Of a stretch of 64,000 nucleotides of DNA, positions 22,915-57,675 are shown one piece after another (within the stretch, counting starts at the first letter, position 1; every line of letters starts with the position of its first letter). A model generated the notes under the pieces. That model was not told the origin of the DNA. It made no database searches and saw nothing but the letters and a program-made list of their open reading frames with translations. The translations under genes and the position numbers were made by a program. Source of the DNA: Deuterostichococcus epilithicus (taxonomy: Eukaryota; Chlorophyta; Trebouxiophyceae; Prasiolales; Stichococcaceae); contig JAVTLE010000021.1 in the NCBI GenBank assembly GCA_033439295.1, positions 248,009 to 312,008 on the forward strand, given 5' to 3'.

Positions 22915-25900
22915 TTACTTCTTCTGCTTTGCCTTCTTCTCGGTCTCCTTCGGCGGCGACTTGAGGAATTGCTGAATGGTCTTTTGCTGCCCGGTCGACA
23001 GGCTCTCCTTCACCGCGCCCTGCACATCGGCATGTTTAGGGTCAGGACAGCCGTCATCATGTCGGATGAGCCCGGGAGCACCACGGCTGTAGAGCAGGAT
23101 GCGCAGGGTGCCATCGACTGGCTTGACAGAGCCATCTGCCATCTGCGGTGCCCTGTGCACAGGCTGCACTGCGCCCGCCAGTGCAGCGTCAGCATGGTGT
23201 TGAGCAGCATTGCATTGCAGGCTCACCCCCTTGATGGCCTTATCGACCTTCTTCACATACCCCTCGATGTCGAACTTTCGCTTGCAGCCTGCAGCGCAGC
23301 GGTGTGTGATGCATTTGTGGACTCGACCGGTGGACAAGGCATCTGTGCATGCGCAGTCAGTCGTGGCCGCGCCGGCAGTCCACTAATCAACATGGTGGGG
23401 GAGCCTCAAACTCACCATTGTAGTTCATGTACCTGCATCCACCCGTGCGCATAAGAGTCAGACAGCATGCGGCTGTTTGGCGTTTGAAGCAAGGATGATC
23501 AGCCAATTACTGAGCTGCTGGCATCGTCCTCAGCATGTGCCTGTATGCACTCGCATGCCAAAGTGCACGGCGGTCATCAGGCTCGAGACTCCCGCGACCT
23601 CTCACCGAATCTTGCCGAAGACCTCGCGTTCGGCCCAGCCCTGGTCATGGACGCCGCAGACGCTCCATGTGCAGCCGACGTAGCCTGCGGTGTGTCGAAG
23701 GGCCAGCGGGTAAGCTGCAAGCGGGGATTTGCATCCATGGGCGAGCTGGTCCCGAGGCCGGCACCACCGTGCAGAGTGCTGCACTGGGCTGCCCACCACG
23801 CCGCCGGCGCAGCGCCTCATGCGGGAGGCACACGGTGGTGTGGCTGCCACCGCCACATGCAATCTCTCGAACCCCGTTGACCAGAAGCTTCGCGGTGGCC
23901 GGGCACTCACCATTGGGGTCGCGTCCGTCGAGCTCATACTTGTCGTTGAGGTAGATGGACCACTCCAGGGCCTGTTCGGGACTCTCAGTCCACTCCAATA
24001 TTTTCTTCGCCTGCCAGGGCAGCGCGACGTATGACGCCAGGGTTTGCGAGCTGACGGCCCGCGAGGTTCTCGAGATGTTGACAGCAGAGTCTGAGGTCCA
24101 GCCGTCTGGCGGTTGGCTGCTTGGCACATTGGCTGGCGAAAGACGTGCAGCAGGCACGCGGTGCCTAGCCGCAGGCAGACAGCAGGCAGGCAGAAATGCA
24201 GGACCACATGCTGCAGGCTGCAGGTGGCGAGCAGAGGGTGCTGCGGAGACACAGGCAGGGGGGTTTGGAAAGGCGCACCCAGTACATCCGCATAAAGCCC
24301 TGCGGCAGGAAACACCGCTATGTCAGGACCAGGGAGGTTGCGCGGGGATCAGGTCACATCAGCGAGGCTGCCTCAGGTGACACAGGCGGAGAGGCTGCAT
24401 CATGTGCCCTGCGGACAAGCACGTCCTTGAATGTGCAGCACGTTGCCGACATGCGGTGGACGGCACTCTGTGTTGGATACCGCTTGGTGGGCCACAGCGT
24501 GTTGAAGCTGCTCGGCTGCTCTACAGCTATGGTATCTGATGCGAGGCCGCAGAGCAACATACCAAGTCCTAGTGGCACACACGCCATTGCCGGCGCGCAC
24601 CACCCTGACGGATCACTGTCAAAACACCACCAACAGGATAGAGAAAATGCATCTTGGTAGGATGAATTAGACGGCGCACATGCATCTTGCCGGTGTGCAC
24701 CACCTCCAGCTGTGCGGCGTTCCACAGCTTGTCATGCGTCTTGCCCTCCTCGAGCTCCTCTCTGCACCAATTTCATGGAAACACTCAATGGGGCCAAACA
24801 AACTTTAGACCTGTTTGGATCGTCTGGTCTCAGTGCAGCATGTAGTGTGACCTGCCTCCTCCAGCTCCTCCCTGCGACACATCAAGCAGCAGAGCACTGG
24901 GAACAGGGCTGTTGCTTCAAGCGGTGCATGTTGAGGCAGAATGTCGGATTCACATGCTGGCGCGCGCTTGGCCCGTCTGCCGAGTCACGCCCCCCCCCCG
25001 CGGACGCGCTGAACGTGTGCAGATGCAGACCAACGCCATCCAGACAGGATCACCTAGCCGGGCTCTGCAGAATGGTTGCCTCATCGTCAGCTGTGCATCC
25101 TCAGCACAGCTGCAATGGCCGCCGCACGCTCCGCAGCGCCGCCGGCAAACAGGGTTCGCCCGCAGACTCTGACACGAAACAAGCCGAAGAGTCGGACAGA
25201 GGGAACCCAAGCAGAGCCACAGCGGCCAGCTCACTTTGAGTACAGGTATTCCCGCTTGTCAGACGAGTGCTTGGCCAGCGACTCCGCCGCCCACGGCGCC
25301 GCACAGCCGAGGTTGTCGTAGTTGGGCTCGTAGAAGCAAAAGTTGTCGGCCAGCTCCCGGCGGATGATCATCTCCTCGAGGAAGCCGTCCACCGCAGCCT
25401 GCATTAGGACACAAGTAGGGTTTTAGAGAGACAAAGGGTTGAGGGCGAACAGCCCATCGCGCAAGTCGGCCAGATCCCACCAGACTGACATTGCTCCTGC
25501 GCGCTGCAGAATGTGGTGCGTGTGCGAGTCTTCAATCTCCGCATTGCCTTCCAGTGCAAGAGCACACGCGCCTTTGCGCAGAAAGGCACCCATCTCAAGG
25601 GCATTGCAGGCGCAACAGCTCTGCAGCAGGTCAGTGGACAGTTTCACCGAGCAATGGCCAGGTCGCAGCGGGTCGTTCAGGTGAGTGTGCAGGGGCGATC
25701 AAATCGTCCGGCTGTCTCTCCGAAGACAAACACGAGCTGCTCACAGAACACTGCAACGTGCATGCGGCTGCACGAGGTTCTCGAAGAGGGCTTCAGGGAT
25801 CCCTGTCCATCAGTTTGCGGCGCCGCCCCTTGCGCGCCGGCTGCTCGCGGCAAGGGGCTGACAGAACTCCGCAACTCACAGGGATCGCTGCTCTGGTTGC

Positions 25901-28900
25901 ATCATGTGGCATGTTGGCTGCGGGAAGCCTTGGCTGCGGGCAGATGACATCGCCTCGCCTTGCTGGTTTTGCAAGAGCTTGCACACCGCGGCGCCAGCTG
26001 CTCAGAGGCTGACCTCAGCTGTCAAGCTTTGGAACCTAACTCGCCTTGCTGGTCTTGCGGTGCTTGCCCGCCTCCAGCGCCGCCCGCTGCGGCGCCAGCT
26101 GCCCAAAGTGAAAGTACGCAGACAGCCCCGACACTGCGTCCGCATTCGGGTCGTTGCGCTTGCCGTCGTAGTGCCCCAGCCGCGCCTTGGACAGGAAGCC
26201 GATCTTGTCGTCCAGCAGCGCCTGCGTGCGCACCACGCTTCGGGGTTCAGGGGAGGCTGAGGGTTCAGGGGTCGTCGTGCTTGCCGTCGTGAGAGCGCCT
26301 GCGCGAGCGCGACAGCTCCGGGTTTCGGTGCTGCCCAATGTCTCTGACGTCAGCGCCACAGCAACCCCCGCGCACACACTGCCTCGCCTAGCGGAGACGT
26401 CTGCCTGGCGCCCCAGCGCCTGGGCAGCGCACGGCGGCGCAGCCTCCCACGGACGCTTCTCGCGCATCTGCACAGTCGATCTCCACTCGGGGTGCCAGGT
26501 CGCGTCCAGTGGTGGCGCATCGCAGGTAGCTCAGCGGCTGTGCCTCGGCCGCCAGCCGGCCTCCACAGCACGCCACACCGGGTACCGCGTCAGGAGGCCC
26601 TGGCCGCAGTTCCGGCTTCGGCGTTGGGTGGGGGTGAAGATCAGAGAGCTTCGTGTCGCCCACCTCACGGGCGCCGTCCTCTCCCGGCTTGCGCCAGGTG
26701 ACCTCTGGAACGGCCCTGCCACGCTCAATGACCTCCTCCAGCAGGGCGTCCCAGTCGACTGGGTCCGGCGTCACGTCGACGTTCCAGTCGGCCTGCTTCT
26801 CCAGCTCCGGATACTCCTGCGGCATGGTGCGAAAAGCCAGGATGAAGTCGTGAAGTGAAGGGTCCCAGTCGATGGGGTCCGGCGTGGTATCTACATTCCT
26901 CTTGGCCTGCTTCTCCGGCTCCAGCCGTCTTTGCAACACATCCTTGCGGCAGGCGGAGTAAGAGGCAGGTGAGCGACCTAGCCTGATGATCTGCGCACAT
27001 TCCGGTGTGCAACTAACAGCAAACCGCAGCTTCACTTGGCAGTGGCAACAACCTTCTTAGGTCCAGAGGCCGCCGTCACACTACGAATGCGGCGGCAAAG
27101 CGTGTGTCGCATGTGCGCAAGAAGCCGCAGCAAGCTGCCAGCAAGCTGTGCCGGCTCAGCGGCACCCTAATCCGTTTCCACTCTGCTTTCCGGCCGCCAT
27201 GCCAGCATGACATTGCAGGGGGCGCAAGGGTGTGCCGACTGTCGAAGGCGTTGTCGCACATGTGTTTGATGGGGTACCTCGAATGTGGACGTTTTGTTTC
27301 TTTCTCTACGACCTGTGTGCCTACCTCCAGGTACTTGCCCAGCTGGTGGATGACCTTGACGCGGACGGTGCGTGCATGCCTGGAGCATTCTGAGACATGC
27401 ACACATCCAAATTTGGAAAGGGGCCTTCCGACCAGCTTCGGGATCACCTCCAGGTACTCGCCCAGCTGGCGGTTGATCTTGTTGCGGATGGTGCGCGCTC
27501 CAGTTTCCCGCTTGTCCGACGCTTCCCAGACCGGCACAACGTTGTGGGCATCCACCTCGTGGAAGGGCACCTCGATCTGTTCCGCGACCTGCAGTGCAAA
27601 GACTTGGGTAAGGACAAGCCGCATTGATAGGGTTCCGTGGACAGGCACCCCTGCCTTCTTGCGCATTCCAAACCGGCACCACATGGTGAGTGTGTCCACC
27701 TCGTGGAAGGGCGCCCCAAATCTCTTCCGCGACCTGCGGCAGTGCAATGCACAGGTATGGTTGGTCAGATGGTCGATCGTCGAGTAACCAACACAGCATC
27801 CATCCTATTTAGCTGACCGCAGCCAGAGTTGAGTGGCTGGAGCTGTCTCCCTTCCCTTCCAGCCGCAGAGTGGCACTGCGCCATGGCCAGGCATGCAAAG
27901 CCACTGCTGAATCTTGCCCATCAGCCACAGCAAGAACATGCATGACGCCTCATACAGCATATGCCTATTCATGTCTATACAGAAGCGGTGATGGCGCCCA
28001 CCCTAATAGAGCGCCCCAGCAACATTAGTACCAGCTCCGGCGCACCAGCTCCGGCGCACCAGCGCCAACTTTGTTAACAACTATCTTTGTTACCTTCTTC
28101 ACCGTTTTGCGTACCAGCCGCAGCAATGCCAGGCCCACCCCGCTCAAGAGCATTTGTATGATGTGTTAATATATAGGTTTGGCATGTTTCGCAATCGCCC
28201 ACCCTGCTGTGCAATGGGCACCCTGGCCGCAGCATTGCCAGAGTCCATCGCCAGTGTGCTGGCGTCAAAATGTTCGAAGAGAGTGCCTGTTGACTTTCGC
28301 CGACACCCACCATCTCGTGCCATTAGCGCCCCCGTTGCAGCAGAGCTGGGTTCGAAGCAGCAGAGCTGGGTTCGAAGCAGGCCGTCGTAATCACGCAGCG
28401 TAATTGGCCACAGTTGTCCACAGCTGTCCTTTTCCACAGGATGCGCCCACCTTTTCGCGCCACTGGCGGCCCAGGCGCAGCACCGCCAGGTCCGTCACCA
28501 GCGCGCCGGCTCCGATGTCCTTCACGAGTTTCGGGATAGTGTCCACAGGGTCGCCCTTGACCAGGAAGAAGGGGATGTTCAGCGCCTCCAGCCGAGGCTC
28601 CAGCTCCCGCAGCCCCCGCAGCATGAAGCCGAACTGGCGCGCGCCCGCGCCCAGGTACTCTGTCACCTGCGGAGAAGGCGTTTCGAACTGAGGCGCTAGG
28701 ACTGCGATGAGACACGCCGGCGGCCGATTCAGGAGGGCGGCTGGCTCGGCGGCTGTGCGCCTCAATGGCAGTGCCCAGCCTGGGTGTTCAGTATGTAGTG
28801 TAATTGGAAGGTGCAAGACGTTTTCGAGTCCGATGCTGCCCACCAGGCTGAACGCGACGGCCACGGGGGCGCCGCTCTCCGCCGCCAGCTCCGCAGCGTG

Positions 28901-29375
28901 CAGCAGCGCCCAGTTGTCGCGTGCCCGCTGGTCCCGAGACATCCTGAAAGAGCGAAGTCGAGGTTGGGAGGTTGGGTTGCACGCTGCACGGTCGGCGCGA
29001 GATGTGCGGGCGATCACTAGCAATACAGCAAGTTGCCCCAGTGACCGCTTCTTCCCCGAGTGGAGCGCTCAGCCAGCGCTGACGTCTGGACCAGCAGTCC
29101 AGCAATTTGCATGCAGCGGGATTTCACTGCAAATTACTGCCGTTGGGAGCCCTCCCACACCAGTAGATGACGGGGCCGCTGCCGATGTCGCCGCCCCTCA
29201 GCTCCCGCCAGCGCTTCGGGTTGACGGTCGCCTTGTTGGGCTTTTGCCGCTTGGACCCCTCGGCCTTTTCCTTGCTGGCCTTGCGTTTCGCAATGTCTTT
29301 CGTGGCTTGAGCAGCCTCCGGCTCCCCCTCCCCCTCCTGATCGTCCGCCTTGTTCTGCTTCTTCGTTGGCGCCAT
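22915..29375 (-). CDS. PHR2: class II CPD photolyase with C-terminal PIP-box-like motif
   Basis: Flavin enzyme that uses blue/UV-A light to split cyclobutane pyrimidine dimers. Exons (minus): 29375-29161, 28943-28844, 28666-28451, 27588-27448, 26816-26664, 26221-26045, 25398-25235, 24761-24680, 24299-24279, 24010-23911, 23684-23606, 23432-23416, 23288-23227, 23019-22915; 543 residues. The basic N-terminus looks nuclear. Family blocks: [122 protein letters not shown]. Two exons are only 21 and 17 bases. The intron after exon 6 uses a GC donor (AAG|GCGAGT). The tail [14 protein letters not shown] fits the PCNA-interacting consensus. The frame stays open upstream of the chosen ATG and includes RGRPRKADG, so a longer N-terminus is possible. 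Confidence 0.95.
24567..24612 (-). repeat. decayed copy of the 3' end of photolyase exon 8
   Basis: Plus-strand sequence here (GTGGCACACACGCCATTGCC and following) resembles 24671-24704, the exon 8 end with its donor. It lies in the intron between exon 8 and the 21-base exon. A second fragment at 24851-24877 resembles the exon's 5' end with its acceptor. Confidence 0.55.
25955..26007 (-). repeat. decayed copy of the 3' end of photolyase exon 6
   Basis: Matches 26043-26108, including the exon/intron boundary, with an internal deletion. It lies in the intron just downstream of exon 6 in the transcript sense. Confidence 0.65.
26861..26930 (-). repeat. decayed copy of photolyase exon 5
   Basis: On the minus strand this reads [20 protein letters not shown], parallel to exon 5 [20 protein letters not shown] at 26745-26806. 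It lies in the intron upstream of the real exon. Confidence 0.8.
27322..27379 (-). repeat. decayed copy of the 3' end of photolyase exon 4
   Basis: On the minus strand this reads [18 protein letters not shown] beside real exon 4 [17 protein letters not shown]; by eye about 80% identical over 54 bases. It lies downstream of the real exon. Confidence 0.8.
27643..27735 (-). repeat. decayed copy of the 5' end of photolyase exon 4
   Basis: On the minus strand this keeps the CAG acceptor, then VAEEI and, after a frame change, APFHEVDT and VVPVWNA, parallel to [21 protein letters not shown] of the real exon at 27448-27588. Frame changes show that it is no longer coding. Confidence 0.8.
28332..28377. 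repeat. 20-bp tandem duplication
   Basis: Two exact adjacent copies of a 20-base unit, AGCAGAGCTGGGTTCGAAGC, in an intron of the photolyase gene. Confidence 0.85.
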
Positions 29376-29827: not shown

Positions 29828-32800
29828 ATGAGCGCGGCCGGAGCCAAGCCTGAGGCCCCTGTGCTGGAAGGTAAGCAGAAGCCTCTGGTGCGCGTGGCGC
29901 TGGTGGCGTCCGCGCGAGCGGCCGACCAGGAACTCGAGGCGTTCACCCCCAGCCCCGCGTTCGGGCCGCTACCGCCGCTTCGCGTGCGATATGATGCATC
30001 GCCGGTGAGCAATCCTGACACGCGCCAGATCTGTATGCGCAAGTTCCATGACGCTTATTGCGTTAAACGTGCACCATGTTTCTGCAGCTTCAGGGTGAGG
30101 CGGATTACCAGGTGTCGCCGCGAACGCCGATCCAGCGCTGCAACAACTGGGTGTGCGGTGAGTGACATATATATGTCGATGGTTCTGTCCGGCGAACGCG
30201 GAGCAATTGATATGATCGTCCAGGTCGCTGGCCGCGCCCGATCATCCAACAGCGGCAGAAGGGTCCGGCAGGGGCCACGGAACTGCAGCGGGCGCCTTGT
30301 TTCGAGGTTGAGTATTAGTTGGAACCCTTGCGCCTTGTCAAGTTAGGTCAAGCACCATGATCTGGCAAAACCGACATGGTCAGTAGTTGGCCTTGTCGGT
30401 ACAGTACGCCGTTTGCTTGTGCGACTGCCAGGACTGTCAACGCTGCTTGCAAGCGGGCCAATCACATTGGCTCATGCTTCAGGGAGCACCGTGTAAACGC
30501 AACGACGTGCACGGGTCAACTCCATGGGGACGGCTGTAGCACAGGAAGTGCAGCCAGGCTGCTGTGCCTGAGAAGCGCACTGGCGTCTCTGCCAACATTC
30601 TCACACTCAGCCTTGCTGCAGGTCGCAACTGCGAGGGGCAGCTGGGCACCGGCGCCGGCGGCGGCATTGTCACCGAGCCGACCCTGCTCCCAGTGAGTGC
30701 GGCTTGCACAGCGGCATGTGCACTGAGGTGCCCTGCAAAGATCTGTCGGATCGCCTCAGCAGCGACACTCCAGCTGCAGATGCGACAGGCCAAAACGAGG
30801 TCAGCGCACCTTGCCACATGCAGCACTGTCCTGGTCAAGCCCTCCACTTCATGGCCTTGGCAACATGCTCCGTTGCAACAACCGCAGTCAGCGGAGCGGT
30901 GGGTGGCGCTCGGCTTTGGCGACGCGCACGGCGCTGGCGTCACGGACGGCGGCAAGGTGTTCACCTGGGGAACTGGCGTAGCTGGGCCTGCAGGACATGC
31001 GCCAACTGGGGCAGGCGGTACGGCGGCGGCGCAGCCTGAGCAGCTAACGGTGTTGCGGGGACTGGACGTCAAGGCCCTCGCCTGCGGCGCTGAGGTGAGT
31101 CTGCTTTTTCCTGCCCGGGGACCGAGGGAGAGAACTGCTCGCTCCATCCTTGCCAGAGAAGCGAAGGTGGCAGGCGAGCCATCCCACTGGCACAGCTGGA
31201 CGTTTAAAAAACAAAAGTCGTGGCCAATCTCTGTGAGCCCTCACTTGTGGTGTGGTTGTGTGCTTCGCAATAAGATGCCCCAGGAGGTGGATTGCCCAGT
31301 GTGCCCAGCTGTGCCAGGTGGGCTCTGCACGCTCAAAAGGAAGTGCTTTGTGGCGCTGAGGACCCGTCGCCGAGCAGCACAACCCCCAGCATAGCGTCTA
31401 TTTTATATCACGTGATTGAGACTCAGGCTGCAGCACAACCCTTTTGCCGCGACTGCGGACAGGGCAACGCCCTGGAGGCCCCAAACCCACAAGCCTCTGC
31501 TGCGGCAGCACGCCGTCGCCACGACAGCAGGAGAAGACATGCCACCAGTCCCTGTCGTTACACCCATGGACCCCTGCCGGCGCAGCACACCGTCGCCATC
31601 ACAGTGGACGAGGTCATCACCTGGGGTGCCAACGGCGAGGGCCAGGCGGGGCAGGGCGAGCGAGCCGAGTTGGCGTGGGTGAAGCCGCGATCGCTGCGGG
31701 CGCTGCGCTCAGCATTCGTGACGCAGGTCGTGTGCGGGTCCTACCACACGCTCTGCGTCACTGCAACCTCCCAGGTCGGTCCAGGGTCCCAGACAGAAGA
31801 TGTAGCTGCAGGAACGCAGACATACAGACATCACATTAGCTCACACTGTCTAGCCTTCTCTAGCTCTGCATGCTGCAGTGGTGGTGCCTGGCGTGGGCCG
31901 CCAACAGACACTCTGACAGACCCCACCACGTCTCAGGGTGAGCAGCAGCACTGCGCATCATGCCCTCCGTGGTGGAGTCTGCCTTCTGCGCTCGGCGCTT
32001 GCAGCCTTCAGCACCTGCAGCATCTCATTTCCGTGGAACAAGCCGGCCTCACAACCCTAGATACTCGTGCGTGCAGGTGTATGCATGGGGCAACAATGCC
32101 TTCGGGCAGCTGGGCTTGGGCGACAAGAAGGCGCGGCGCAGCCCGACGCTGGTGGCCGGCCTGTGGGCGCTGCCGGTGGCGCAGCTGGCGGCGGGGGCGG
32201 CGCACTCGGCGGCGCTCACATCCGCGGGCTTCCTGTTCACATGGGGCGCGAACTCGCGGGGACAGCTGGGGCTGCCCGCCATGGCGGAAGTGGCGGCGCA
32301 GCACCAGGTGGGATTTAGGGTTCAGTGTTTTTCCATCTCCCCCTCGGAATCTGTTGACGGCCTGCGCCATGTCATTATACACGAAAGAGATGCACCAAGC
32401 AGCCCGATGTGAATTCTGGGGTCAGTGGACTGGGACCTGATATTATCAGCGTTACTCCTAGCATCCTCCTTAGTCGGAGCTCTGGCACTCCTTGGCAGTG
32501 CAGCCCGGAATGATATAATGTCTTGCGACTGGGGTCATTGTTCGGATGGATGTGACCTGCAGATGTCTTGGCTGCTGCAACGACAGCGGCTGCATGCAAC
32601 ACGGAGCATGCGGCTTCTCTTCCCTGCTGCGGCAGTGTTGAGAGTGGACTGAATGCGGAAACTGGCACTGGCACTGCACGGCATCCGTCCTCTGTGCACC
32701 TGGGCCAGTGCGGCGCCAACTGGCCTCCCGGGTCACCGCGCTTTCTGCACCCTGATCGTTCACCTGCATTCTCCGTCTCGTGGCCTTTTGCACAAAACAT

Positions 32801-35800
32801 AATCTCTAAATACAGGGCCAGTGCGGAGCAGACGAGCGGCGACGGGTGCGGCGGGCAGCCAACCAGCGCTTCCTGGGGGCTATGCTGGACATGGGCATAC
32901 CGCAGGAGCATGCGGAGCTGGCGCTGGCCGAGACCGGCAACGTGGGCATCGAGGTGAGGGATCGGTCGTTGGTCCCGTCTCAGACTTGCAACAGTAGCAG
33001 CGTGAGTGTTCACGAGCTGGCGCTGGCGGTGACTGGGGTCGTTGGCAGCAAGGCGGCCAGAACACGCAGAGACCTCACCCCAAGAGTGGTACTGGCAACA
33101 TTGGGGCCGGCGTGGTGCGCTGACGTCAACCTTGACTCAATTGTGCTGCAGCGTTGGTTAGGGCCCACGAAGCACTGTCTCTGCTTGAGACGGGCGATGC
33201 GGGCATGGTGGCACACGCTCAGGCATGGGTCCTGTTTAGTCGTTGAGTCCTGTTTCAGGCCTGATTCATCTGGTGCCTGGAGCTCGGCGCGGTGGGGCTA
33301 GGCAGGTCCACCGTCTGGCCCAGGCAGCTGAGCGGCGACTCCCATCCATTGCAGCACGGCCAACCACCCTCGCGCAGGCAGCATCGTGTGAGCGGCGCAT
33401 CTGCGCCGGCAGCTGCTGGACAGGCTGCCGAGCAGCAGCAGGCAGCGACTGGTGTACCCATCGTGCGATGGCAATGACAGCATGGACACGGGCAGTCACG
33501 CGCCGTCGCAGGTGGCCTCCGAGTGGCTGTACACATGTCCAGACGACGTGCTGGACCGGCTCCTGCACGGCAGCGGGCCCGGGACGCCGCACGCCGGCGA
33601 CGGCGCCGACGACGCCCCCGTGCTGACACCCCGCCGCGTCACCACCCTGCAGGTGCGACTCCTCCCCGGCTGTCTGAAATGACTGCAATGAGTGATGAAA
33701 TCGCTGCGCATGAAGCAATGGTCCAAGCAGGTGACGCTCTGCATGACCATTTTACTTGCGACCGTCCCGCGAGCGTGACGCGAGTTCCTCTTCGTCTGCC
33801 ATGGGCCGCACAGCTCCCTGCTGGAGTGACGCCGCTGCATCGAGGCAGGACTGCGTGATCTCATGCTCCATCACAGCCACAGCTTCCGTGTCGGCTGCTC
33901 CTGATGGGCCAGTCGCGTGCCGTCCCCCCGCAGGCGGTGCGCTGCATCGCGATGGGCGCCTTTCACACCGTGGCGGCCACTGGTGCCGGCGCAGCGGCCT
34001 TTGGCGCCAACGACGCCGGGCAGCTGGGCACTGGTGATACGTCAGATCGGCAGCAGCCGGCGGTGGTGGCGGGGCTGGACGGGCGGCCCCTGGCGTCCGT
34101 GGCGTGCGGCGCATACCACACCCTGTTCCTGTGCAGGTGCAGGGTGGTGCACTGCAATTTTTTTGGTGCCTGAAGCGCGCTCATATACGTCGGGCTTGGA
34201 GGCACTCCATCCAGTCGGCAGTAGCCGGAGAGGCGATTGGGCCCTGCTGGGTCTTGGGGTTGATGCCCGCTCAGGGAACGCATCCTCGGAAACACACCCG
34301 ACCGGGAAGCGCACGGGCCGAACAGAGGCGCTCTGGTGACATTGCAGAGACGGCAGTGTACTCGGCTGCGGCGTGAGTGACAGCGGCCAGCTGCCGCTGG
34401 GCGCCTGCGGACCGCATCAGCAGGGTCAGCAGCAGCGGCGGAGGTCCAGCCCGCTGGGCGGCGGCGGCAGCGGCAAAGTCAGCCGCACGCCCAACGGTGT
34501 GCAGCAGCAGGGCGCTTCGGTGCTGGTGCCGCAGCCGCTGCAGCTGCCCTTCCTCCAGGTGACATCGCATCGCCTTGCAGAATTATTCTTAGGAACTTGC
34601 CCGCATTGGCAGACAGTCGGTGCTGTGCGTCAGGCGAATGTAGGACGTAGGGCGTACAGCCACGAGGAGGGGGGAGCCTGGCGACAGCGGTGCAATGAGA
34701 TCAGCGGCTGAACATCAGCACATGCCAAGCGCGAGATTCTGCCAGTGGATTGGCCGCTGTGTCCCTTGACGAGGACACTCTCTGCATGTGCTGGTGCTCT
34801 GACGCCTTTCGCTTCTCCCGGCAGGGACACTGTTAGCATGCAACTTGGCTATTCCAATAACTCTTGTGACTTGTTTAGGCGCCTCTGTAAAGGAGGTGCA
34901 ATCAGCACGCACTTGGCTGGCAGCCACGCTTCTAGCATTCCAAATGGTTAAGAAGGTGGTATCTGTAGAGTGTGATCTTCCAGTCTAACATTGCCCCTAG
35001 GCGCCAGATGTGCGGGCCGCGTTGGTGGTGAGCTCGCTTGCGGCCGTTGGCACCACCTCTGGCAGCCCCGGTTCTGAACATCAAGGCGGGGATGTCCGCC
35101 GTCTGTGATCAAGATTGTTTTAATCGTTGAACCCGTACAGGCGCCCCCAGGCCAGGCTGTGCCGGTGGTCAGCGCCCTCGCCGCCGGCGGTGCTGCTTCC
35201 GGCTTCCTGGTGCGAAGCGGCAGCGAGCTGCCAGAGCCGCGGCCGCCGCAGCTGCTGGAGCGGCTGCAGGCCGCGGTCGCAGGGGCGGCAGCGGAGGCGG
35301 CCGCAACGCTAAAGGGTGGCCCGCTGCCGCTGGACGGCGGTGCAGCGGCGCTGGCCGGCGTGGTGACGGCGGTGGAGATGATCTTCAGCTCCGCCGCGGC
35401 CCTCAGCGCCGCCTTTGGCCACCGGGTGAGGAACCGGGCTGCGACATTATGCGGCAGCAAGGATCACTTATACAGCGCAGCCTAGACAGCGAAGGATATG
35501 TCTCTCATATTTCGCATCCTGCATGTGCGCAGGATGGTGTGGGGCTGCAGATCCAGGCCCTAGTTGACATGCAGCTTGCCATTCTTGGGCTGTATGCACC
35601 GCACCGCGGCAGTGAGCAGCCACAGGACCAGCAGCGGCGGCGGTGCAGCCTGCACGGCGGCGGCAGTGGCAGCGCCGCCTCTTCAGCGCAGTCCACACCG
35701 TCACACGCGGCGGCAGATGCCGCGACGGCGGATGCTGCGGCAGCGTTGGCAGCGGACGCGGCTGTGGCAGCAACAGCACTGTCAGCGGCGGCGCCTGCAG

Positions 35801-38800
35801 CTGGGCCCGCAGGCGACGCCGCTACACTAGACGTGGCGGCGGGCTCGGCGCCGAGTCGACAGTACAGCCATGCCGAGGTGGGTCTGAAGAGCGATGCAGC
35901 ATCCCAGGGTTGAGCTTGGGGGTTTTTCGTCGAAACCTCGCTCGAGGCCAGAGGTTTTCGGCGGGGCTTGGCTGCGCCCGACGACAGCTGCGCCGGACAT
36001 TCCTCGAAATCCAGCCTTTTCTGCGCCGGCGCCGGTGCCAATGTGGGAGGCGTGGCGTGGCGTCAGGCAGCGCTGTTGGAGCGCTGCCTGGGCCAGCACT
36101 CGAGCTCGCATCTTGGCACTATTCGTCCCCACTCCCCAACCTTTCCTGTCATGAGACTTGGGGCGCGCCAGCATGCACAGCTGGTTTATCGTGCCCTCTT
36201 TGCGGCTGTGCAAGCCCCAAACTCAATTGCCACAGTCAGTTCGCCCTTGCAACCGCGCCTTGGGCAGGACCTGCCAGAGTGGTGGCACCACAGCCAGTGT
36301 GCAACGCGCTTGTGCCAGCACTATGCAACGAGAGACTGCCGTTCGGACCTGCACGAGTGGCGAATCGGCGCGGCGCTGCAATGTGACGGACGCATTTGCC
36401 ACTGCCCATGTCGAGCACTGACTGGAACGGGGCTGGGCAGCTGCTGAGGCCTCGCTGCTGCTGCTGTTGAAAGGCGTGCACGAGTGGCGATCGCGGCGCT
36501 GCGAGGACCTGAGATTGCCTCGGACTGTGCTCTGACTTGTTTTGACACTTGATGGTTACTCGTTTCTAGGGCCTGCACGAGTGGCGGGGGCGCTGCTGTG
36601 AGGATGTCATTGGTGCGCTTGGCTGCGCGACGGACCACCTGCTGGCCGAGCTGGCCACCTCCATCAGACTTCTCGGTGCTCCCGCCGTTCCCATTTCGCA
36701 TTCCAGAAAAATGCATGCTTATGGGTCCTTGAGCTGGTTGCTTTCTTTCGCAGTGTCCCAAGTGCTCAAGTGACACAGTATCATCGTTGTTCTGCTACTG
36801 GTGTTCCAAGAGCACCTGCCGCCGCCGGCACCACAAGTGACGCAACATCATCATGGTTCCATCACTGATGCTCACGCCCCTGCTGCCGCCGCCGCCTGCT
36901 CCTCAGCAGCTGCGACCATTTCGACTGTACAGCATGACGATCAATCGCTTTCGGCCAAATGCTTCCAGTCAATTGGCGTGTCGTCTCTGCCCAGGCACCC
37001 CGGAACGGGCGCAGGTTTTGCTGGCGGCGGCGGCCAGCCCGCTGCTGGCGCACCCGCTGTGGGGACCGCGCCTCATCCCCCGCCTGTGCCAGACCATCCT
37101 GGACGCGCCGTCGTCCGCCCGCCAGGTGCACAGGCACCAGGGTTTTGGGTTGTTAACGGTCTCAGACACCACAGCCGAATCGCTTCTTGTCGCAAGCTCA
37201 GCAGCCTCTACGATTGGGCCTGCAGCCTGTGGGAGGGTCCATCATGTTGGGGTATCAGTCACTGGCGGTAGGCACGTGCATGCGCCATGTGGGTCGCCCA
37301 GCAGTTTCCCAGGGCATGATTATTGGCCACCAGCAGCCCCGGCGGCCGCACCCGGGTCAACAGCGTTGGGCAGACTGCCTGTGACATATGCGCTGCCCGG
37401 TGCCACGATCCCGCGCATCTGCATGCAAACCTGCAGGCCTCATTCGGACGCCATTGCCTGCCTCTCATCTGGCCTGCACTCATACCTGATACAGAGCAAG
37501 CAAGCCAGTAGAGTAGCTGGAGTAGCTGTAGCGTCAATAGGGAATAGGCTGGCTGCGGCAGTCTGCAGATCGCCAGATCCCTGCACTTAAGTGCTGTCTA
37601 CTCCTGCCACAACCCATTGCACTGCAAAACGGCAGCCAGGAGTGGTTTAGCGCGCATGCAAGCCGTTGCCGCAGGCAGAAGCCCAAGCCCCCTCAGCATC
37701 AGAGGCTCTCAATGCCTAGGGTTCGCCTGCACACCGATACATGCGACAGCAGTTTCGTCAAGTGCAAGTACCATGTAGCTTCGGATCCGATCGTCAATCT
37801 ATTGAGGTATCTACGCCGCAGTTGCTGGTGGTGTGGTGGTCCGAGTTCGAGCCGGCGCTGCTGGACGCCTCCGTGGTGCAGCCGCTGCAGGTGCGGCAGT
37901 CTCCTCTCACTGTTGACTTCTGAGCCTGTGGACGTCTCCAGATGCAAGCCTGTCGAAGTGCATCAAGTTTTGAATACGGGCAAGGCGTTTGCACTTGTGC
38001 CCTGTGATTGCTCGGCCCTGGCAGACTCAGTCCGAGTCGGGCGGGCACACAGCATGCAGGCTCGCTGTGCCTCACTCCCCTCTTGTCAATGCCCGACAGC
38101 ATGGGACTGACGATGCTGAGGATGCTGCTGCTGTGATGCTTAACTTGTGTTTCTGCGCAGAAAAAGTGGAAGATGCACAATCTCGACGCATGATGCGTGG
38201 GCTGCTGAACAAGGAAATATGCTCCGGCAACTTCCGCGCTGCAGATGTGCCTGAACAGGCGAGCCGAAGGCAACGAGAAAGCTACGGTGTGATGGCGGCC
38301 ATCAAGGGCCTGGCAATCGTATCTGCAGCAGAAGCGCTATTACTCTAATCATCAACTGCTCTGCTCGCAGGCGTACCTCACAGGCGAGCTGACGGCGACC
38401 AAGAAGCTGACTGGCGGCGTGATGGCGGCCATCAAGGGCCTGGCGGTTGTAGAGCAGGCCAACCAGCTTGCACGGCGCCTGCCGCCAGAAGCCTTCTACA
38501 ACGAGCTTATCAGGTGCTACCTTCAGAAAATTACGTTCAGGGGTTCAGGGTTTGCGCCCGCTGATTGAGGGGGTTGCGCCAGGCAGGCCAACTAGCTGGT
38601 GTGGCGCCTGTTGCCACAGGCCTTTGGACACGAGCTCACTCAATAACCCAGTCGGTGGCGGCTATAAACGCTGCAGCTCACCTTCGTGAAACTCTGAATT
38701 ACAAAGATTGCGACGCACGGCCAGCCTGTGCTCGTAGGACTTGCAGCGAAAAAGCAGGACTCGGGCCACCACTCCTTTGTGCAAAGCCAGACGCACGACC

Positions 38801-41800: not shown

Positions 41801-44800
41801 GCTTCCAGCATCTTGCAGCACCTTCTACTCATGTCAGCCCTCTGACAAAAGTTCCTGTCGTCCACTGTCACTCACTCTGGCAGGTTGACGCGCTGAGGCA
41901 GCACTGATAGATGAATCTGCCGATGCAGGAGAACTGTGTCTTCCAGCATCGTGCAGCAACTTCTGCTGATGTCAGCCCTCACGGCTGACGGGATTCATTC
42001 TTACAGGCGAGCGGCCTGCGGCGGCAGGGGTCGATGAATCTGCCGACGCCGGAGGACAGCGGCGTGCCGCCCGACAACCCCGACTTCTGCATCCTCCGCA
42101 TCCGCCGCAACCACCTCATCGAGGTGTGTGTGTGTGTGTGTGTGTGTGCACGGGTTGGTGTCCTCGTCAGAGTCTGAGCTCGGGATTGCACAGGTACACT
42201 GTCGCATCCTGCGCATGCGGCGCAGCCATCACACCGAGATGCGTTGGAGGGTGACCATGTTGCAAACAAACAAAAGCTGCAGTTGCGGCGCAAGCAAGAC
42301 CTTTGAGTGTCGACTTGCGCACGAGCTGCGTCACCAGGCGCCCACCCGCAAGCCACATACGAGCCGTGACAGCCTGCCGCCAATCAGTTCAGTTTATTTT
42401 ATTTTTATTATATATTCTATATGATTTTCTTTCATAATCATTCTTACCCGCACAGGATGCGCTGGACGAGATCGCGCGGCAGCGGCCGAAGGATCTGTTC
42501 AAGCCGCTGCGGGTGCACTTCATCCAGGAAGCCGGCATCGACGCCGGGGGGCTGAAAAAGGAGTTCTTCCAGCTGCTGCTGGCGGAGCTGCTGTGCCCCG
42601 ACTACGGCATGCTCATCTTCCAGCCGGTGCGCTCTGCGGGTCGCCACATCAACCGCGATATGATGATGCCAAAAAAAATCTAATATTTGACAGCCTGGCA
42701 GCGTGCCGGTCTGAGTGCTCACAGCGCCAGGGCTGTGGCTTGTCACAGATGTTCAGATGCCCTGGCAAGGCCTGATCTTGCTGGCACTGGGCCCCCCACC
42801 TCTGGTGGGCTCAGCCCAGGTCAATGCCGATCTGCTTGTCCCCTTGTGGTCACACGCCATGCCGTCTCTGGAAGCAAGCTGATTCGCATACAACAACCAC
42901 AGGAGTCAGGCACCTACTGGTTCAACCCCTCGTCGCTGGAGGCGGACACTGAGTTCATGCTGCTGGGCCTGGTGGCTGGCCTCGCCATCTACAACGGTGC
43001 GTCCCGTCCATACAAGTTCGTTTTGCTGTCATGAGCCCCTCGCACTCGCAAGCTGCAGCCCTGCGGCAGGTGCTGGGCAGTTGCTCGGCTACAACGGTGC
43101 GATTTCTTCGAAATGTCTCGGGCACCCAACTGCTGACAGGATGTGCCAGGGCTGCTCAGTGACTTGCTCACGTATGCTCCTGGCTGGCGCTGGCGCTATA
43201 CAAGCACAGTCGCTGTGCAGACACCAGACACCAGACGAGACCAATCTTCCAGTATCTATCAATGCGCACATTCCCCCAGAACTGTTTTCTGCCTGCTGCA
43301 GATGTGCTGTTGGACATTGCGTTGCCGCTGCACGAGGAGCTAGCAGTGCAGCTGCCGAGTGCAGCTTGGTCAATTGCTTGTCGCGAGTGCATTGGTTATC
43401 AACCTGTGCAGGCGTGCTGCTGGACTTCCCGCTGCCGCTGGCGCTGTACAAGAAGCTGGCGGGGCAGCCGCTGGGGCTGCGCGACCTGGCGGACTTTGAC
43501 CCCACCCTGGGGCGCTCACTGCGCCAGCTGCTCGACTACGACGGTGCACGCTCCCTGAGACCAAATCCTGACATCCTGATCCTCATCATGTTCTGGCAGC
43601 ATCTCGGTCGATGTGCAGGATCCGCGCAGTGCTGGACATGCCAGCTGCACGATCGCACGGCTGCGCGTGGAGCGTCTGCTTGCCACACCCGCTTTCCTGG
43701 GCACAGGAGCCGGTTTGTTGCAGGAATCGACGTGCAGCCGTGCTGAAATTGGCAGAAAGCCTCTGTCCCAAAGCATCCTTGAGCTGTGGTCCGACCTTGA
43801 GTACCATCAAATTTGTAAATGTTTAAACTGTCCAGGCCCCGGCACCGTGGAGGACGTCTTCTGCCAGACCTTCACCGCCGGAGTGCCTGGCATCGGGCAG
43901 CCGCTGTCGCTGCCACTAGTGCCGGGGGGTGAGGCGCTGTATGTCACCGAGGACAACCGCCGCCAGTTCGTGGACGCCTATGTGGACTGCATCCTGTCGC
44001 GTGCGGTGCACCGCCAGTTTGAGGTGGGCAGCCGATCTCGCATCTGATTCGACGCTTGCAAGGCTGCATGCGGCGGTCGCAACATGGGAACAAGTGCAGT
44101 ACGTGAGCATCCGGCACTGCGGCCGCTTGTCAATTGCATGTTGTTGAGCTTGCTGCACCGCGGCTTCTTGGTAGAGTTGTGCGGGGCTTGTCTCATCGCA
44201 AAACAGCATTCGTCTGGGACTCTGGCTCCTGGCCTCACTGCCGCAGACGGGTCGGAATGTGAAGTACAGAGCCACATATGCCACTGCTCCAATAACGTCC
44301 TTGTGGTCATTTTTCCAGGCCTTTGCGCGCGGCTTCCTGATGCTGTGTGGCGGCCCAGCAATCCACCTGTTCTCGGCCACGGAGCTGGAGCGGCTGGTGT
44401 GCGGCACCCCGCTGCTGGACTTTGGGGCGCTGCAGCGGGCGGCGCGCTACGATGGGGGCTACCACGCGGAGCACCAGGTGACAGCAGGCCCCACCTTGAG
44501 GAGGCTGTTGGAAGGGATGTCGATTAATATGACATTGTGCACGCGACCCTGCAGCAGGGTGCCGCGCTTCGACGGCAGCTGCCAAGCAGACCGTCAGGTG
44601 GCGGGAACACGCGATACTGGAGGTCAGCTGCTCCACTGCGAGCCTCTGGCTTGTGCTGGAGGTATGTTCGGTGATGTCGGGCCCTTGTCAACGCTGGCAC
44701 TCCGGTGCGATTGTGGGCTGTGGCCGCCTTAGGAACCCCTCACCCGGGAAACATCGAACCATGTCCAGCGCAGCAGGACCTGCTGTTCTGACGCTTGGTG

Positions 44801-49954: not shown

Positions 49955-52900
49955 ATGGCAGACCTGCCACCGCTGACGCAGGCGGCCTTTGACGCTGCAT
50001 ATGTAGAGTTCTGCAAGCAACGCGGTGCGCACCCCCTTTGCCAAGCATATCTGCATCTCGACACTGTGCGCTTGTACGACGAAACCAGTTGGCAGCGTGC
50101 AGTGCTGGGATTTTCGGCGCTGCTGCACTCATGCACCGGTCATGACATGGGTCATCGCTCCATTCTAGAGGCACTAGCCATTCCAAAATATGCTGAGTGC
50201 ACCCCAGCGCATGGGTTCAGGGCATGCAGGTGAACAACCCTGTGGGAACAAAACGGCTGCGCCGCATGCAGCACTCCGTGACATCAGAAAGTGCCGCTGA
50301 CGCTGGCGGCTCTCGAGGGAGTTGCGCCGCACCACAACTGGACTGACATCACGACTTCCAGGCACGCCCTTCCAGCGTGGCGTGGACTGCTACGGAGCCC
50401 CGGTGAGCCTGTTCACCACGTACGCGGTCATCCAGGCTGGCGGCGGCTGCGACGCGGTGACCGCAGCCCGGCGCTGGACCGCCGTGGCGGAGGCGATCCT
50501 GGCGCCACGCTCGGGCCGCGGCGGCATGTCGCTGCACGTGCGCCACCTGTACGAGACATACCTCCAGGTGGGCAGGAGTTTCCTGCATGGTTCAGCTGCA
50601 GGGTGCCAACACAATCCCGGCACAGGCCTTGGGCTGGGAGGCAGCACAGAGCGTGGCTGCTCGGCATCGGCACAGCAGTCTGACGCCAGCCCCGGCGCGG
50701 CGGCCGCCGCCGCAGCAGAACGGCGATCAACACGCGCCGGCTGTCAGGGTGTGCTTGCTAGGAAGGCTCAGTGCCATAGAGGGGACAGCCAGCACTGGAA
50801 TAACTCTCGACAATGCTCTGATTGTTGTAAAATTCTCAGAATGTTCTGAAATGCTCGGCTTCAGCGTGTCTTCTCGTCTCTGCGACTGCAGGAATTTGAG
50901 AAGACGGCGCGGGACACGCTCATGCGCCGGCACAGCGTGCCGGCAACCATCCGTGCAGCACTGGAGGCGGCGACGGCGGCAACCCGCCAGAACAGCAGCG
51001 GCAGCAATGGCGGCGGTGACGCTGACAAGGTGCTTGTGTTTCGGCTTCGCAGCCTCGTGCGGTCCTTGGCTGCCAAGCGACAGGTTTTCCCGTGGGGACG
51101 CTTAGCTGCCTGTCAGCCTGCATGTCACCGATGCAGCGCCTGCCCTGCTGCCGCATAGCATGACTGCCGGCGTCATTCCAGAAGCAATCGGCCCCATTGG
51201 CGCAGAAGTGCACTAGACCTGAGGCACGATGCAGTCCACTGTGCTGTGTGCCACTGCGCCAAACACGTCGTGGTATGCTCCCACAGAACCCAAAGCGGGC
51301 GCGCGATTCCGACAGCCCGGAGCAGCGCGAGGGCAGCCCGGCGGCGCGGCCGCCGCTCGGCGGCGGCCGGGCGCCGGCGGGCGCGGCCGCGGTCGCGGCG
51401 GCGGCCGCCCCAAGCTCAAGCCGCAGCCGCCGGCCACGCCGCTGCCGCCTGGCTACATGCCCACGCTGGCGCCCAATCACCAGCTCAGCAGCCGCGCCAT
51501 CCTGCCGCCGCACGGCCGCGGCCGCGCCCCCAAGGTGACGCTCTGGCGGCTCACCAACCCCTGCCATGCCCGGCTCTTCAGCCGCGCTGCCCCGACGCAC
51601 GGAACCTGCACAACCCTCCCAGTCGTCTCACGCAGCGTCGACGCGCAGCCGAGTCGTCCAGCATGTCAGCGGTGCGCTGCCGCCGCAGGTGTTACCGCCC
51701 ACGCTGATGCGGCGGGCGACGCCGACGCCGCCGCCGGGCGCCGGAGCCGGCAGCCCGGCCACCAGCGACGCCAACATGCCGGCGGCCAAGCGCGACCCTC
51801 GCGCCGCCAGCCGTGCGACTCCTCGCGGTGCGACGCTCTCATCATTTTTCCTGCTTTGATTCCAGATTTGTAGCAAAGCAACCTGAGAGTTTCTTTTCCT
51901 TTTCTCAATTGGTTTTCGTTAATTCCGGTTGTTTGTTTGTGCATTTCCCGAGTCGTGGCAAAACCGCATGTCTACGCACACAGGACACTTTTGCACTTTT
52001 TAATATGTTGTTATATAGTTCCATGCACACAGGACACCTGTGCAAAATTTCCCTCAGACCAAACCGAAACGTGCCTCCCTGATGCTGGCTAGACCGCTGC
52101 AATCAGACCTGATTCCCTGTCTGCAGCCGCACCCAGCCGGCGAGCGGGCCGAACCACACACACCAACGCAGCACATGTGCACAAGTTCCAATTATCATAC
52201 TCAATTGCAAGAACATCTTGCAATGTCTCGAGGCTTGTCCTTCATGGATCCTTGTGCAAATGCGGTCCCTTGTGTCCCTGCAGGCGCAGGCGCCGCCGCT
52301 GCCAAGGCAGGTGCGCAGGCCGCCCGGCAGCCGCAGCCGAGCACTGCTGCGGCGCAGCTCATGGCCCTGGGCTTCGACTCCCCGGCGCCGGGGTCCGACT
52401 CCGATGCGGGCGCGTCCGCCAGCCCGGCCGTGGGTCGCGGTGAGTCTGAGATTTCAGCCAAGCTGCCGCCTCGCGCCTGTGACTGTGACTGGATCGTGCC
52501 GCCGGGCGCGGCAGCCGCCGTCTGCACACGGCTGTTCGACTTCCGGGCACCAGGGTCTGGCTGCGAGGCGGGCGCCTCGGCTGGTCCGTGAGTCGTAGCC
52601 AGTTGGGCATGGCGTATGGAACACGCTGATGTGCCCGTGTGAAACAGTGATTTGCAACATGTGGCACTGCCGCCGCCCGGGCCGGTGGCACATCCACAAG
52701 TGTGCGGCTGCACCTTTGTGGGTTGGTGCACCAGGAGTCCAGGCCGGGTGCCTGCGTCACGCTGCAGCTGCAATCGGACGTAACACACGCCACTCATACA
52801 TCAAGACACGCTCAGCACCATCAAGGATTTAATTGCAAGGGTCCACAACGCGGTGCACAATACCTGAGGCTTGTTCAGAAGCATGAAGGAAGCGAGCCAA

Positions 52901-55900: not shown

Positions 55901-57675
55901 CGCCTCGATTCTGCCCCGCCGACCCTGCCCAAACCCGCCCTCTGCACTCCTCCACGGCGGGCTGGAGGCCGAGGCGGCGGCTTCGCTTTCCAGCGGCCGA
56001 CCTCTGCCAGCCTTGCCGCACGGTGCCTTGGGGCGGTGTCAGCGGTGGCCCACACCCTGCTCGCTTGGCCGGATCTGAGAGTCGAACATCTGCTCACTAC
56101 GCCTGCTCGCAAACGCAGGCTGGAGATCGAAGCGAGGGCTGTGGCGGCGCTGCGCGGCGCGGTAGGCCCGCACGCGGGCGTGTTGGGGCTGGACTCCATG
56201 GGCGGCGCCTACGGCCGGGACTGGACCGACCGGGAGGCGGCGCTGCTGGAGGAGGGCATGCGCCTCGTGGGCCGCGACTTCAGGTGCACCTTTGTAACCA
56301 GAAAAGGTATTGTTTCCATTCGGAGGCTTTTTTGGAGCCACTCTGGAACTCTTTGCAAAGGTTTGTGTGAGGGCGCGCACGGACCGTGTCACTGCGGTGA
56401 GTTTGCTGCCAAAGCGCGGGCGGCACACCTCACACCGCCCTACTCCCTCCTCTACTGATGTTGAAAACCTGCACCTGATCTTCGGTTTCCGAGTGCATGT
56501 TCGCGCTAGCGTCAGCCGGCTGCCTGAGCGGCGGGAGGCGGCCCCCCCATCCTGTATCCACTCATACTGTCCTGCTCATATCCATAACTGATGGCTGGAC
56601 GGCATTTGTGCCACAGGCGCATCGCCATCAGCCTGCTGCCGGAGCGGCGGGAGGCGGACCTCATCCTGTACTACTACAACGTGTGGAAGACGCGCTTCAC
56701 GCCGCGCGCCCGCGCCTGGTTCACCGCCCTGGAGCAGGTGTGTTGCTGCTGAGGGTTTAGGGGTTAGGGTAGCATGCCAGGTGGCACACCATCCGGGGAG
56801 CTTGCGGGCTCCAGGGAACATTGGTTGGCCTGGCAGCGGCGGCTCGGCCGGTGCCAGGAAATCCAGCGCCATCGACTGCCGCTGCATCTTGTGATTGGCT
56901 GTCCACCAGCCCATCAAAGACCCCCATGCTCCGGTGTTCAGCTCGCGCCAAGCGGCCCCTTCAGTTGCAGCAAGTCCGTCGATATTGACATCAGCCGGCA
57001 CAGCCATTCCGTGCGCCGCAGGCGTGCAAGGCCGAGGCAGGAGAAGCCGTGGAGCGGTCCCGGGTGGCTGAGGCGGAGCGGGCGGTGATCAGACACCTTC
57101 AACCTTTTCCTCGTTTCCGAGGTATCAGCACCGAATTCTTCGGATGCAGGCGCGCAAGGCGGAGGAAGCAGAGGAAGCCGCGGAGCGGGCCAAGGTGGCG
57201 GAAGCGGAGGCGAAGCGGGCGGCGGCACAGGCAGCATCGGTGCAGACGCGGCAGCTGCGCGATGCCGTCGCCTGGCTGCGCAACTCGGCCAAGTGGCCCG
57301 CGGACTCGCTGCCGAGGTGGGGCGCCTTGGCCCGTTGAGCAACTGGCGTGATGACGGAAACGCACATAGACTTATTGCTGAAGCAGATTAGACTCAAAGA
57401 GTCGTGCAGTCCGTGCTTCGCATGTCTGCTCGAACCAGCATGACGAATGCAATTGGCAGCGCCACTGGCGGCACGCGCGGGTTGGTGAAGGTGAAGTTGT
57501 ATAAAGGCAGCGTGGACAGATGCGAACTGACGCGCATTGGCCTGCTGCAATGTACAGGCAGAAGCACAGGGAGCGGGCCATTCGCATGAAGTCGCTGCTG
57601 GCGGCGCAGCACGTGGGCGACCTCGCCGGAGAGGGTGCCGAGATGCCGACGTCGCCCTACAACGACAGCGGCTGA
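49955..57675 (+). CDS. ARID-ELM2-SANT chromatin protein
   Basis: Nuclear DNA-binding/co-repressor-type protein. Exons: 49955-50024, 50362-50567, 50892-51029, 51316-51534, 51689-51827, 52284-52439, 53251-53426, 53915-54040, 54513-54661, 54906-54971, 55430-55665, 56119-56283, 56617-56737, 57150-57316, 57558-57675; about 739 residues. ARID: FDAAYVEFCKQRG joined to TPFQRGVDCYGAPVSLFTTY, then HVRHLYETYLQ|EFEK. A basic GRGRGRGGGRPKLK run resembles an AT-hook. ELM2-like: REGPGFQAQLP. SANT: DWTDREAALLEEGMRLVGRD, ISLLPERREADLILYYYNVW, KTRFTPRARAWF. A coiled, Ala/Glu/Lys-rich helix follows. Within 55430-55665 the frame must shift in a Pro/Ala-rich stretch: either a 32-base intron at 55530-55561 or an indel. 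The same domain trio occurs in plant ARID proteins. Confidence 0.9.
52531..52594 (+). repeat. decayed copy of ARID-gene exon 6 end
   Basis: It reads LFDFRAPGSGCEAGASAGP then GTGAGTC, parallel to exon 6 GFDSPAPGSDSDAGASASP and its donor at 52440. It lies about 170 bases downstream. Confidence 0.8.
53108..53155 (+). repeat. decayed copy of ARID-gene exon 7 start
   Basis: TGTGCGCACAG, then a purine/GC pattern ending GCAGGCGCGCGAG, resembles 53243-53292 (acceptor plus the basic APRQRRARKKK segment). It lies upstream of the real exon. Confidence 0.55.
56504..56565 (+). repeat. decayed copy of the SANT exon start
   Basis: It reads VSRLPERREAAPPSCIHSY beside the real ISLLPERREADLILYYYN (56617 onward). 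The core CTGAGCGGCGGGAGGCGG is almost exact. Confidence 0.85.
57017..57092 (+). repeat. decayed copy of the ARID-gene exon 14 start
   Basis: It keeps the CCGCAG acceptor and reads ACKAEAGEAVERSRVAEAER against the real ARKAEEAEEAAERAKVAEAE (57150). Spacing is about 130 bases. Confidence 0.85.

Follow-up and report, generated by a model that had tools for sequence, protein, structure and literature searches.

Introns of Deuterostichococcus epilithicus carry mostly old, decayed tandem copies of their adjacent exons

Introduction

The origin of intron sequence is hard to document, since the copies from which it might be recognised decay. The question is raised by a 64,000-nucleotide stretch of the green alga Deuterostichococcus epilithicus (assembly GCA_033439295.1, contig JAVTLE010000021.1, positions 248,009 to 312,008; hereafter the window), taken from a 46.8-Mb genome in 21 contigs (about 60% GC): what are the segments in its introns that resemble broken pieces of the neighbouring exon, and how did they come to lie there? 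In a compact genome with introns of about 200 bases, the source exon sits beside such a relic and serves as a molecular ruler. The initial annotation of the window placed at least 20 relics in the introns of three genes between 24567 and 57092, attributed them to recurrent short tandem duplication across exon-intron boundaries, and supposed that this would lengthen introns. Here we describe alignments within the window and in samples from elsewhere in the genome that bear on each of these points.

Results

Because a BLAST self-comparison may hide matches near the main diagonal, spacing counts were taken from our own banded Smith-Waterman aligner, which is independent of BLAST and was run with low-complexity sequence masked on the window and on a 264,295-base set described below. 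Complement, reversed and reverse-complement sequences and other exons served as controls in place of shuffled introns. At shifts of 40-180 bases, the window contains 44, 33, 26, 21, 16 and 14 direct copies at scores of at least 14, 15, 16, 17, 18 and 20, respectively, against 3, 2, 0, 0, 0 and 0 in the complement control. Twenty of the 21 copies scoring at least 17 lie within 24567-57092, one before this interval and none after it. This count, like the 26 copies at a score of at least 16, bears out the annotated figure of at least 20 segments, and the annotated spacing of 75-170 bases agrees with the shifts from our aligner. The list also includes exon-exon, intron-intron and intergenic pairs, so that not all of the copies join an exon to an intron. 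Window positions 1-24566 hold a single relic-like pair at this score (17047 / 17099) despite 35 predicted introns, and the next 32.5 kb hold 20 pairs and 70 introns, with 13 further introns after them; intron number alone thus leaves the difference of 1 versus 20 copies unexplained.

BLAST comparison of the window with itself also returned direct repeats, many of them at shifts of 99-165 bases and with E values down to 5e-37 (38752-39225 / 38896-39351). Its inverted matches within 1 kb were self-palindromes, save three at distances of 423, 934 and 951. Whether the repeated unit equals the period can be asked of the best-preserved arrays only; in one of these, 38752-38961 matches 38896-39103 over 210 bases at a shift of 142-144, a copy length that reaches the shift. 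Ladders of copies had been described in the initial annotation, and three ladders of three were found, at about 38748/38892/39034, 41767/41905/42028 and 56402/56516/56632. A dispersed repeat or introner element should recur at many unrelated sites, but the one array searched genome-wide, at 38700-39400, matched itself only, in a search that skipped simple and very common words.

Exons and introns were assigned with a self-trained gene finder that combines a three-periodic coding model with splice-site weight matrices and explicit intron lengths. Training with the window plus 17 ten-kb stretches converged on a set of 112 genes and 443 introns, whose median length is 203 bases, with a predicted donor consensus of AG/GTG(C/A)G and an acceptor consensus of GCAG. 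The addition of eight merged pieces (30,295 bases) gave the 264,295-base set, with 128 predicted genes and 515 introns.

The copies are tied to the exon next to them. In 234 kb, introns matched an adjacent exon at a score of at least 22 in 21 of 715 pairings, compared with 3 of 2437 for non-adjacent exons of the same gene, 1 of 715 for the reverse complement of the adjacent exon, 0 of 715 for the reversed exon and 1 of 3758 for length-matched random exons. The comparison of introns with exons that the initial annotation had proposed as a check therefore places adjacent matches well above all of these controls, and the excess supports its description of direct tandem copies of exon parts that often cross the exon-intron boundary. 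At a score of at least 18, 35 of 405 introns have an adjacent-exon match, and the 38 matches at this score fall on either side of the exon, as had been described (20 relics downstream and 18 upstream). Among 43 pairs scoring at least 20 at shifts of 60-180 bases, 23 are exon-intron pairs, where random placement predicts about 14 (33%). The remainder comprise 11 exon-exon pairs (14% expected), five intron-intron (27%), two exon-intergenic (6%), one intron-intergenic (2%) and one intergenic-intergenic (18%). Conservation of one member about doubles the time for which a pair can still be recognised, so the exon-intron excess fits neutral decay and need not imply that duplication prefers exons. 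Some of the exon-exon pairs are relics mistaken for exons by the gene finder, and some are coding repeats.

Neither the three genes nor the window bounds the phenomenon. In the 264,295-base set, direct pairs scoring at least 20 number 4, 3, 2, 6, 17, 10, 5, 3 and 1 in successive 20-base bins of shift from 20 to 200, so that the maximum spans 100-140 bases, where the 100-120 bin holds 17 pairs and the 120-140 bin 10. Longer shifts contribute 17 pairs at 200-300, none at 300-400, three at 400-500 and none at 500-700, and several of those at 200-300 represent two steps of a ladder, as with 38744/39031 next to 38752/38896. The total of 71 direct pairs compares with none in the complement control (2 at a score of at least 18), and no inverted pair scoring at least 20 occurred below a shift of 300 in this set. 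At least one exon-intron pair with a shift of 60-180 and a score of at least 20 is present in 8 of the 17 ten-kb stretches, so the limitation to three genes falls away. Pairs of all classes have a mean of 1.7 and a variance of 4.7 per stretch; the copies are therefore clustered. The pattern is real, genome-wide and statistically secure: tandem duplications, most of them old, that cross exon-intron boundaries and favour a unit of 100-140 bases.

As a group, the copies evolve without coding constraint. Exon-intron pairs scoring at least 18 at shifts of 60-320 in the 264-kb set show a frameshift indel in 28 of 42 cases, an in-frame stop in 5 of 42, and one or the other in 29. Mismatches at codon positions 1, 2 and 3 of the exon frame amount to 129/598, 124/583 and 173/578, a mild third-position bias that would be expected of a free relic beside an exon that drifts synonymously. 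When alignments were extended across the exon boundary, relic acceptors kept the A in 23 of 28 cases and the G in 24 of 28, and relic donors kept the G in 12 of 17 and the T in 9 of 17. The nine exon bases beside relic splice sites were kept at 0.64-0.86, and in the intron flank retention dropped to about 0.2-0.5 within 12-20 bases. Since retention of the splice dinucleotides is not clearly above that of the exon body, relic splice sites are not specially kept. Frameshifts, stops, mild codon bias and splice-site decay all agree with the earlier description of the copies as decayed relics and not alternative exons; one exception, at 38892-38961, is taken up in the Discussion.

The divergence of the copies is considerable, with a median identity of 0.785 over 41 pairs and a range of 0.69 to 0.91. 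Two of the 43 pairs (window 27323 and sample L012 4852) were omitted from the age counts and retained in the class counts, their identity of 1.0 being a false value from overlapping coordinates (63% and 61% by BLAST). Tandem Repeats Finder, at a minimum score of 40, found no array with a period of at least 25 and a match of at least 95% in 284,295 bases. The best of its 11 arrays, which is also the best-preserved case, lies in sample L014 at 9178-9469, where 2.2 copies with a period of 133 bases and a 91% match span intron and exon. At 9140-9469 of the same sample, this youngest array, with its 133-base unit at 91-92%, stands beside an older, more diverged copy, so that the same place was duplicated more than once. 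In sample L002, a coding tandem repeat with a 123-base period, within the range of the relics, occupies 5262-5492 inside one predicted exon of one of two tandem gene copies that are 76-77% alike and 3.4-4.9 kb apart. This gene pair was considered for paralogue dating and rejected, as it holds the coding repeat instead of a relic. The only inverted pair among 37 BLAST pairs is found in sample L008 (7090-7194 / 7742-7845), where a mostly exonic sequence matches an intergenic stretch at 78% over 106 bases.

The suggestion that the duplications lengthen introns found no support. Relic-bearing introns (n = 31) have a median of 235 bases against 205 for the other introns (n = 484; P 0.26), and 2865 of 115,589 intron bases, about 2.5%, lie in a readable copy. 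After detected copies were masked, the rate of 30-base exon-intron matches at shifts of 100-120 was 84.0 per 100,000. This was the largest value among 18 bins, but the relic-distant bins at 300-320 and 400-420 gave 82.7 and 81.0 per 100,000; a clear remainder of older relics did not emerge. At this sensitivity, the data do not support relic duplication as a major source of intron DNA.

Within the window, the photolyase gene, which we take to be of class II, lies on the minus strand. Its exon at 27448..27588, which belongs to a joined draft that aligns to photolyase 3umv_A, is modelled as the source of relics on both sides. Upstream in gene sense, 27662..27747 repeats the start of the exon with its acceptor (27520-27599 / 27662-27747, 78%, with indels of one and two bases), and downstream, 27323..27375 repeats its end with the donor (27323-27375 / 27446-27498, 85%); the gene finder called 27325-27354, inside the latter relic, an exon. 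The segment 26862..26922 copies exon piece 26748-26808 at 80% identity, without indels and at a shift of 114; both are modelled as exon, one of them probably being a relic. At 26269..26326 two overlapping relic matches correspond to exon pieces 26148-26180 and 26204-26248, each with a one-base insertion, and 24836..24875 is a relic of exon piece 24725-24765 (shift 110-111, one one-base deletion).

The RCC1 and HECT domains are on the plus strand, as are all remaining copies described here. A relic of 31562-31617 that includes the acceptor lies at 31485..31540 (shift 77), and one of the exon end at 32915-32954, in the RCC1-HECT region, at 33014..33053 (shift 99, no indel), with a further match at 33175-33235. 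The relic at 38228..38321 derives from exon piece 38353-38451 (shift 125-130) and has three indels and one stop. The array at 38744..39033, which gives the E value of 5e-37, contains two relic copies (exon-start equivalents at about 38748 and 38892) upstream of the predicted real exon at 39034..39223, whose predicted protein has no Pfam match; its unit of about 142 bases is made up of about 72 intron and about 70 exon bases. Exon 42028-42123 is preceded by a second intron array, at 41744..42027, in which its start is repeated as two relic copies (exon-start equivalents at about 41767 and 41905). Two copies derive from HECT exons: 43284..43355 is a relic of the piece at 43395-43471, shifted by 111-116 bases and with indels of 1 and 6, and 44549..44600 repeats the last part of exon 44247-44477 together with the donor (44430-44480, shift 119-120). 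The latter copy may be a relic, its portion at 44555-44597 being called exon in the gene model. Further along, 52535..52588 is a copy of 52373-52426 (shift 162, both modelled as exon), and in 56404..56556 the acceptor and first part of exon 56632-56737 recur in two relic copies (starting at about 56402 and 56516), the nearer one with a two-base insertion. Of the gene names first assigned, photolyase, HECT (together with RCC1) and ARID, whose domain is at 50361-50567, were recovered; ELM2 and SANT were not confirmed, the sole related match being a sub-threshold Myb-like one (E 0.066). Our gene finder places the ARID domain and the exons at 53-57 kb in two separate genes.

Two simple repeats were also seen in the window. 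An AAT-rich microsatellite of 166 bases occupies 40226-40391 in the HECT region, and 4.4 copies of CTAAACC, presumably the plant-type telomere repeat, lie at 122-152, about 248 kb inside the contig.

Discussion

The copies combine a tandem direct layout, a peak of unit size, adjacency to exons, unconstrained decay, genome-wide spread and a mostly old age. They resemble neutral remains left by a familiar type of mutation rather than working parts, and we consider it probable that they are leftovers of short tandem duplications, mostly with a unit of 100-140 bases, that spanned an exon-intron boundary and of which the surplus copy decayed neutrally. According to this view, a short genomic duplication of mostly this size would by chance straddle the boundary, and the surplus copy may have been tolerated because the original exon could still be spliced. 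The surplus copy would then decay as neutral intron sequence while selection held the exon, and some loci would duplicate again with about the same unit to give ladders of three. The duplications may have arisen from the repair of staggered breaks, by fill-in of complementary overhangs and subsequent end joining, or from replication slippage, and not from a mobile element; we put forward the staggered-break route with low confidence.

Several observations weigh against this explanation. With a constant rate of duplication and neutral decay, 28% of pairs should be at least 0.90 identical, yet only one of 38 is (56512 / 56628; P = 6e-5), or one of 22 when exon-intron pairs are taken alone (P = 0.007). 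The test, from which three of the 41 pairs fell out with identities below 0.70, is conservative because the best local stretch was chosen and old pairs are lost. Such a shortage of young copies would be unexpected if the process were still active; collapse of near-identical copies in the assembly and purging of young copies are both possible. Two samples taken later and outside the training set (L039 and L040) contain no exon-intron pair scoring at least 20 at shifts of 60-180. Their sole exon-intron pair has a score of 16 at shift 135; in these samples the complement control rang once at 16 or above, and the pairs that do reach 20 in that range of shifts comprise one between exons and an intergenic one. 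The lower flank of the size peak is shaped in part by detection, because short units seldom reach the score. The gene models are self-trained predictions in which some relics are called exons, and the splice-site cases are not independent, since ladders share an exon. Finally, relic 38892-38961 and exon 39034-39103 are separated by six differences over 70 bases. All six fall at third codon positions, a pattern closer to constrained than to neutral sequence. Because the relic has a unit (about 142 bases) that is not divisible by three and covers only the first 70 bases of the exon, we treat it as a lead and not as an alternative exon.

The shortage of young copies is what would be left by a past pulse of tandem duplication, caused for example by a transient repair defect, instead of a steady process. 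We regard such a pulse as a serious contender whose chances fall somewhat short of even. Both versions of the identity test point towards it, as does the lack of any array of period 25 or more with a match of at least 95% in 284 kb. However, the L014 array at 91-92% indicates that activity was not all at one time, identities are spread from 0.69 to 0.91, and the same picture would result from purging of young copies or from assembly collapse. The few young copies make the word "recurrent" in the initial annotation doubtful, and it is therefore best read as "formerly frequent". More tentatively still, a size-restricted process with units of about 100-140 bases might have acted genome-wide in a past pulse, left about one readable duplicate per 6 kb, seeded several percent of exon-intron junctions with relics, and then stopped. 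If this is correct, the unit would resemble a physical one, for instance a repair patch or an interval of nucleosome scale, and the introns would record a dated mutational episode.

A role for the copies as functional alternative or mutually exclusive exons, or as selected decoy exons, is unlikely. The relic acceptor AG is mostly kept, relic 38892-38961 is changed only at third positions, and tandem exon duplication often gives such exons in animals (PMC9013439). Nevertheless, most of the copies are frameshifted or interrupted by a stop, the third-position bias is mild overall, and the splice dinucleotides show no clear advantage in retention over the exon body. We think it very improbable that the copies represent new introns created by tandem duplication of AG/GT-bearing exon segments. 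This model expects exon-like sequence at both intron ends, and cases have been described in potato (PMC4974935) and Drosophila (PMC2891723). The donor flank should then resemble the acceptor flank at the same offset, but the 443 introns give no such signal: donor-acceptor identity lies within 1.7 standard deviations of the shuffled control in all six bins (0.2635 versus 0.2642 at -60 to -30), and gapped scores of at least 22 occur twice among 296 introns of 160 bases or more, where 1.4 are expected, introns below 160 bases being covered by the ungapped comparison only. Chance similarity, composition, or ordinary low-complexity or coding repeats can practically be dismissed as the general cause, for although L002 5262-5492 and probably L040 4205-4391 are coding repeats and the complement control rings at low scores (3 at 14 or above in the window, 2 at 18 or above in 264 kb), it does not ring at a score of 20 or above, where 71 direct pairs are found, the adjacency and orientation controls are low, and low-complexity sequence was masked.

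If short tandem duplications are indeed the source of the copies, the divergence of each relic dates its duplication, and the set provides a neutral mutation spectrum as well as a natural test of the loss of surplus splice sites. The age gap, with old copies and hardly any young ones, makes the choice between a burst and a steady process directly testable.

The type of mutation is already known, and the unusual points are the size peak, the genome-wide spread and the old age; the literature matches listed, which were open-licence papers only, included no account of exon relics in green algal introns. Rogers, as cited by others, reportedly put forward the tandem genomic duplication model of intron gain in 1989, and Gao and Lynch are said to have treated internal gene duplication, in which exon-intron segments are duplicated in tandem within a gene, as a general process in 2009. 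The initial annotation knew of no described process, whereas boundary-crossing tandem duplication, exon copies and break-repair duplications have all been described, in PMC4974935, PMC9013439 and PMC8355091, respectively. Tandem duplication across an intron-exon boundary has been described in a potato RdRp gene (PMC4974935), and tandem duplication within coding sequence in Drosophila (PMC2891723). The model likewise involves short intragenic tandem duplication, which in potato also crosses the boundary, but there the copy makes a new intron, whereas here it lies inside an existing one without donor-acceptor homology.

A second comparison is with the exon copies of animal genes, surveyed by authors whom we take to be Ivanov and Pervouchine (2022). 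In our set, an intronic copy of at least 80% identity (mismatches only) lies within 60-180 bases for 417 of 88,075 exon bases (0.47%). The animal survey (PMC9013439) reports that animal genes hold unannotated exon copies and that exonic nucleotides with a homologue of at least 80% make up about 2% in human, 0.08% in D. melanogaster and 0.06% in C. elegans. Both systems thus have exon homologues outside annotated exons, and our value is six to eight times that of fly or worm and below that of human, on a rough scale since the methods differ. Compared with the animal copies as described there, the units here are short, often partial and mostly frame-broken.

The third comparison concerns break repair. 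In mouse and human cells, small tandem duplications can arise from staggered breaks through fill-in and end joining (PMC8355091), and insertions of 10-1000 bases in rice (Vaughn and Bennetzen 2014) include tandem duplications, according to the review PMC7407515. These are likewise short tandem duplications from break repair. The events in PMC8355091 were induced and their size was set by the overhang, and the rice insertions are broad in size, whereas the duplications in D. epilithicus peak at 100-140 bases and few of them are young.

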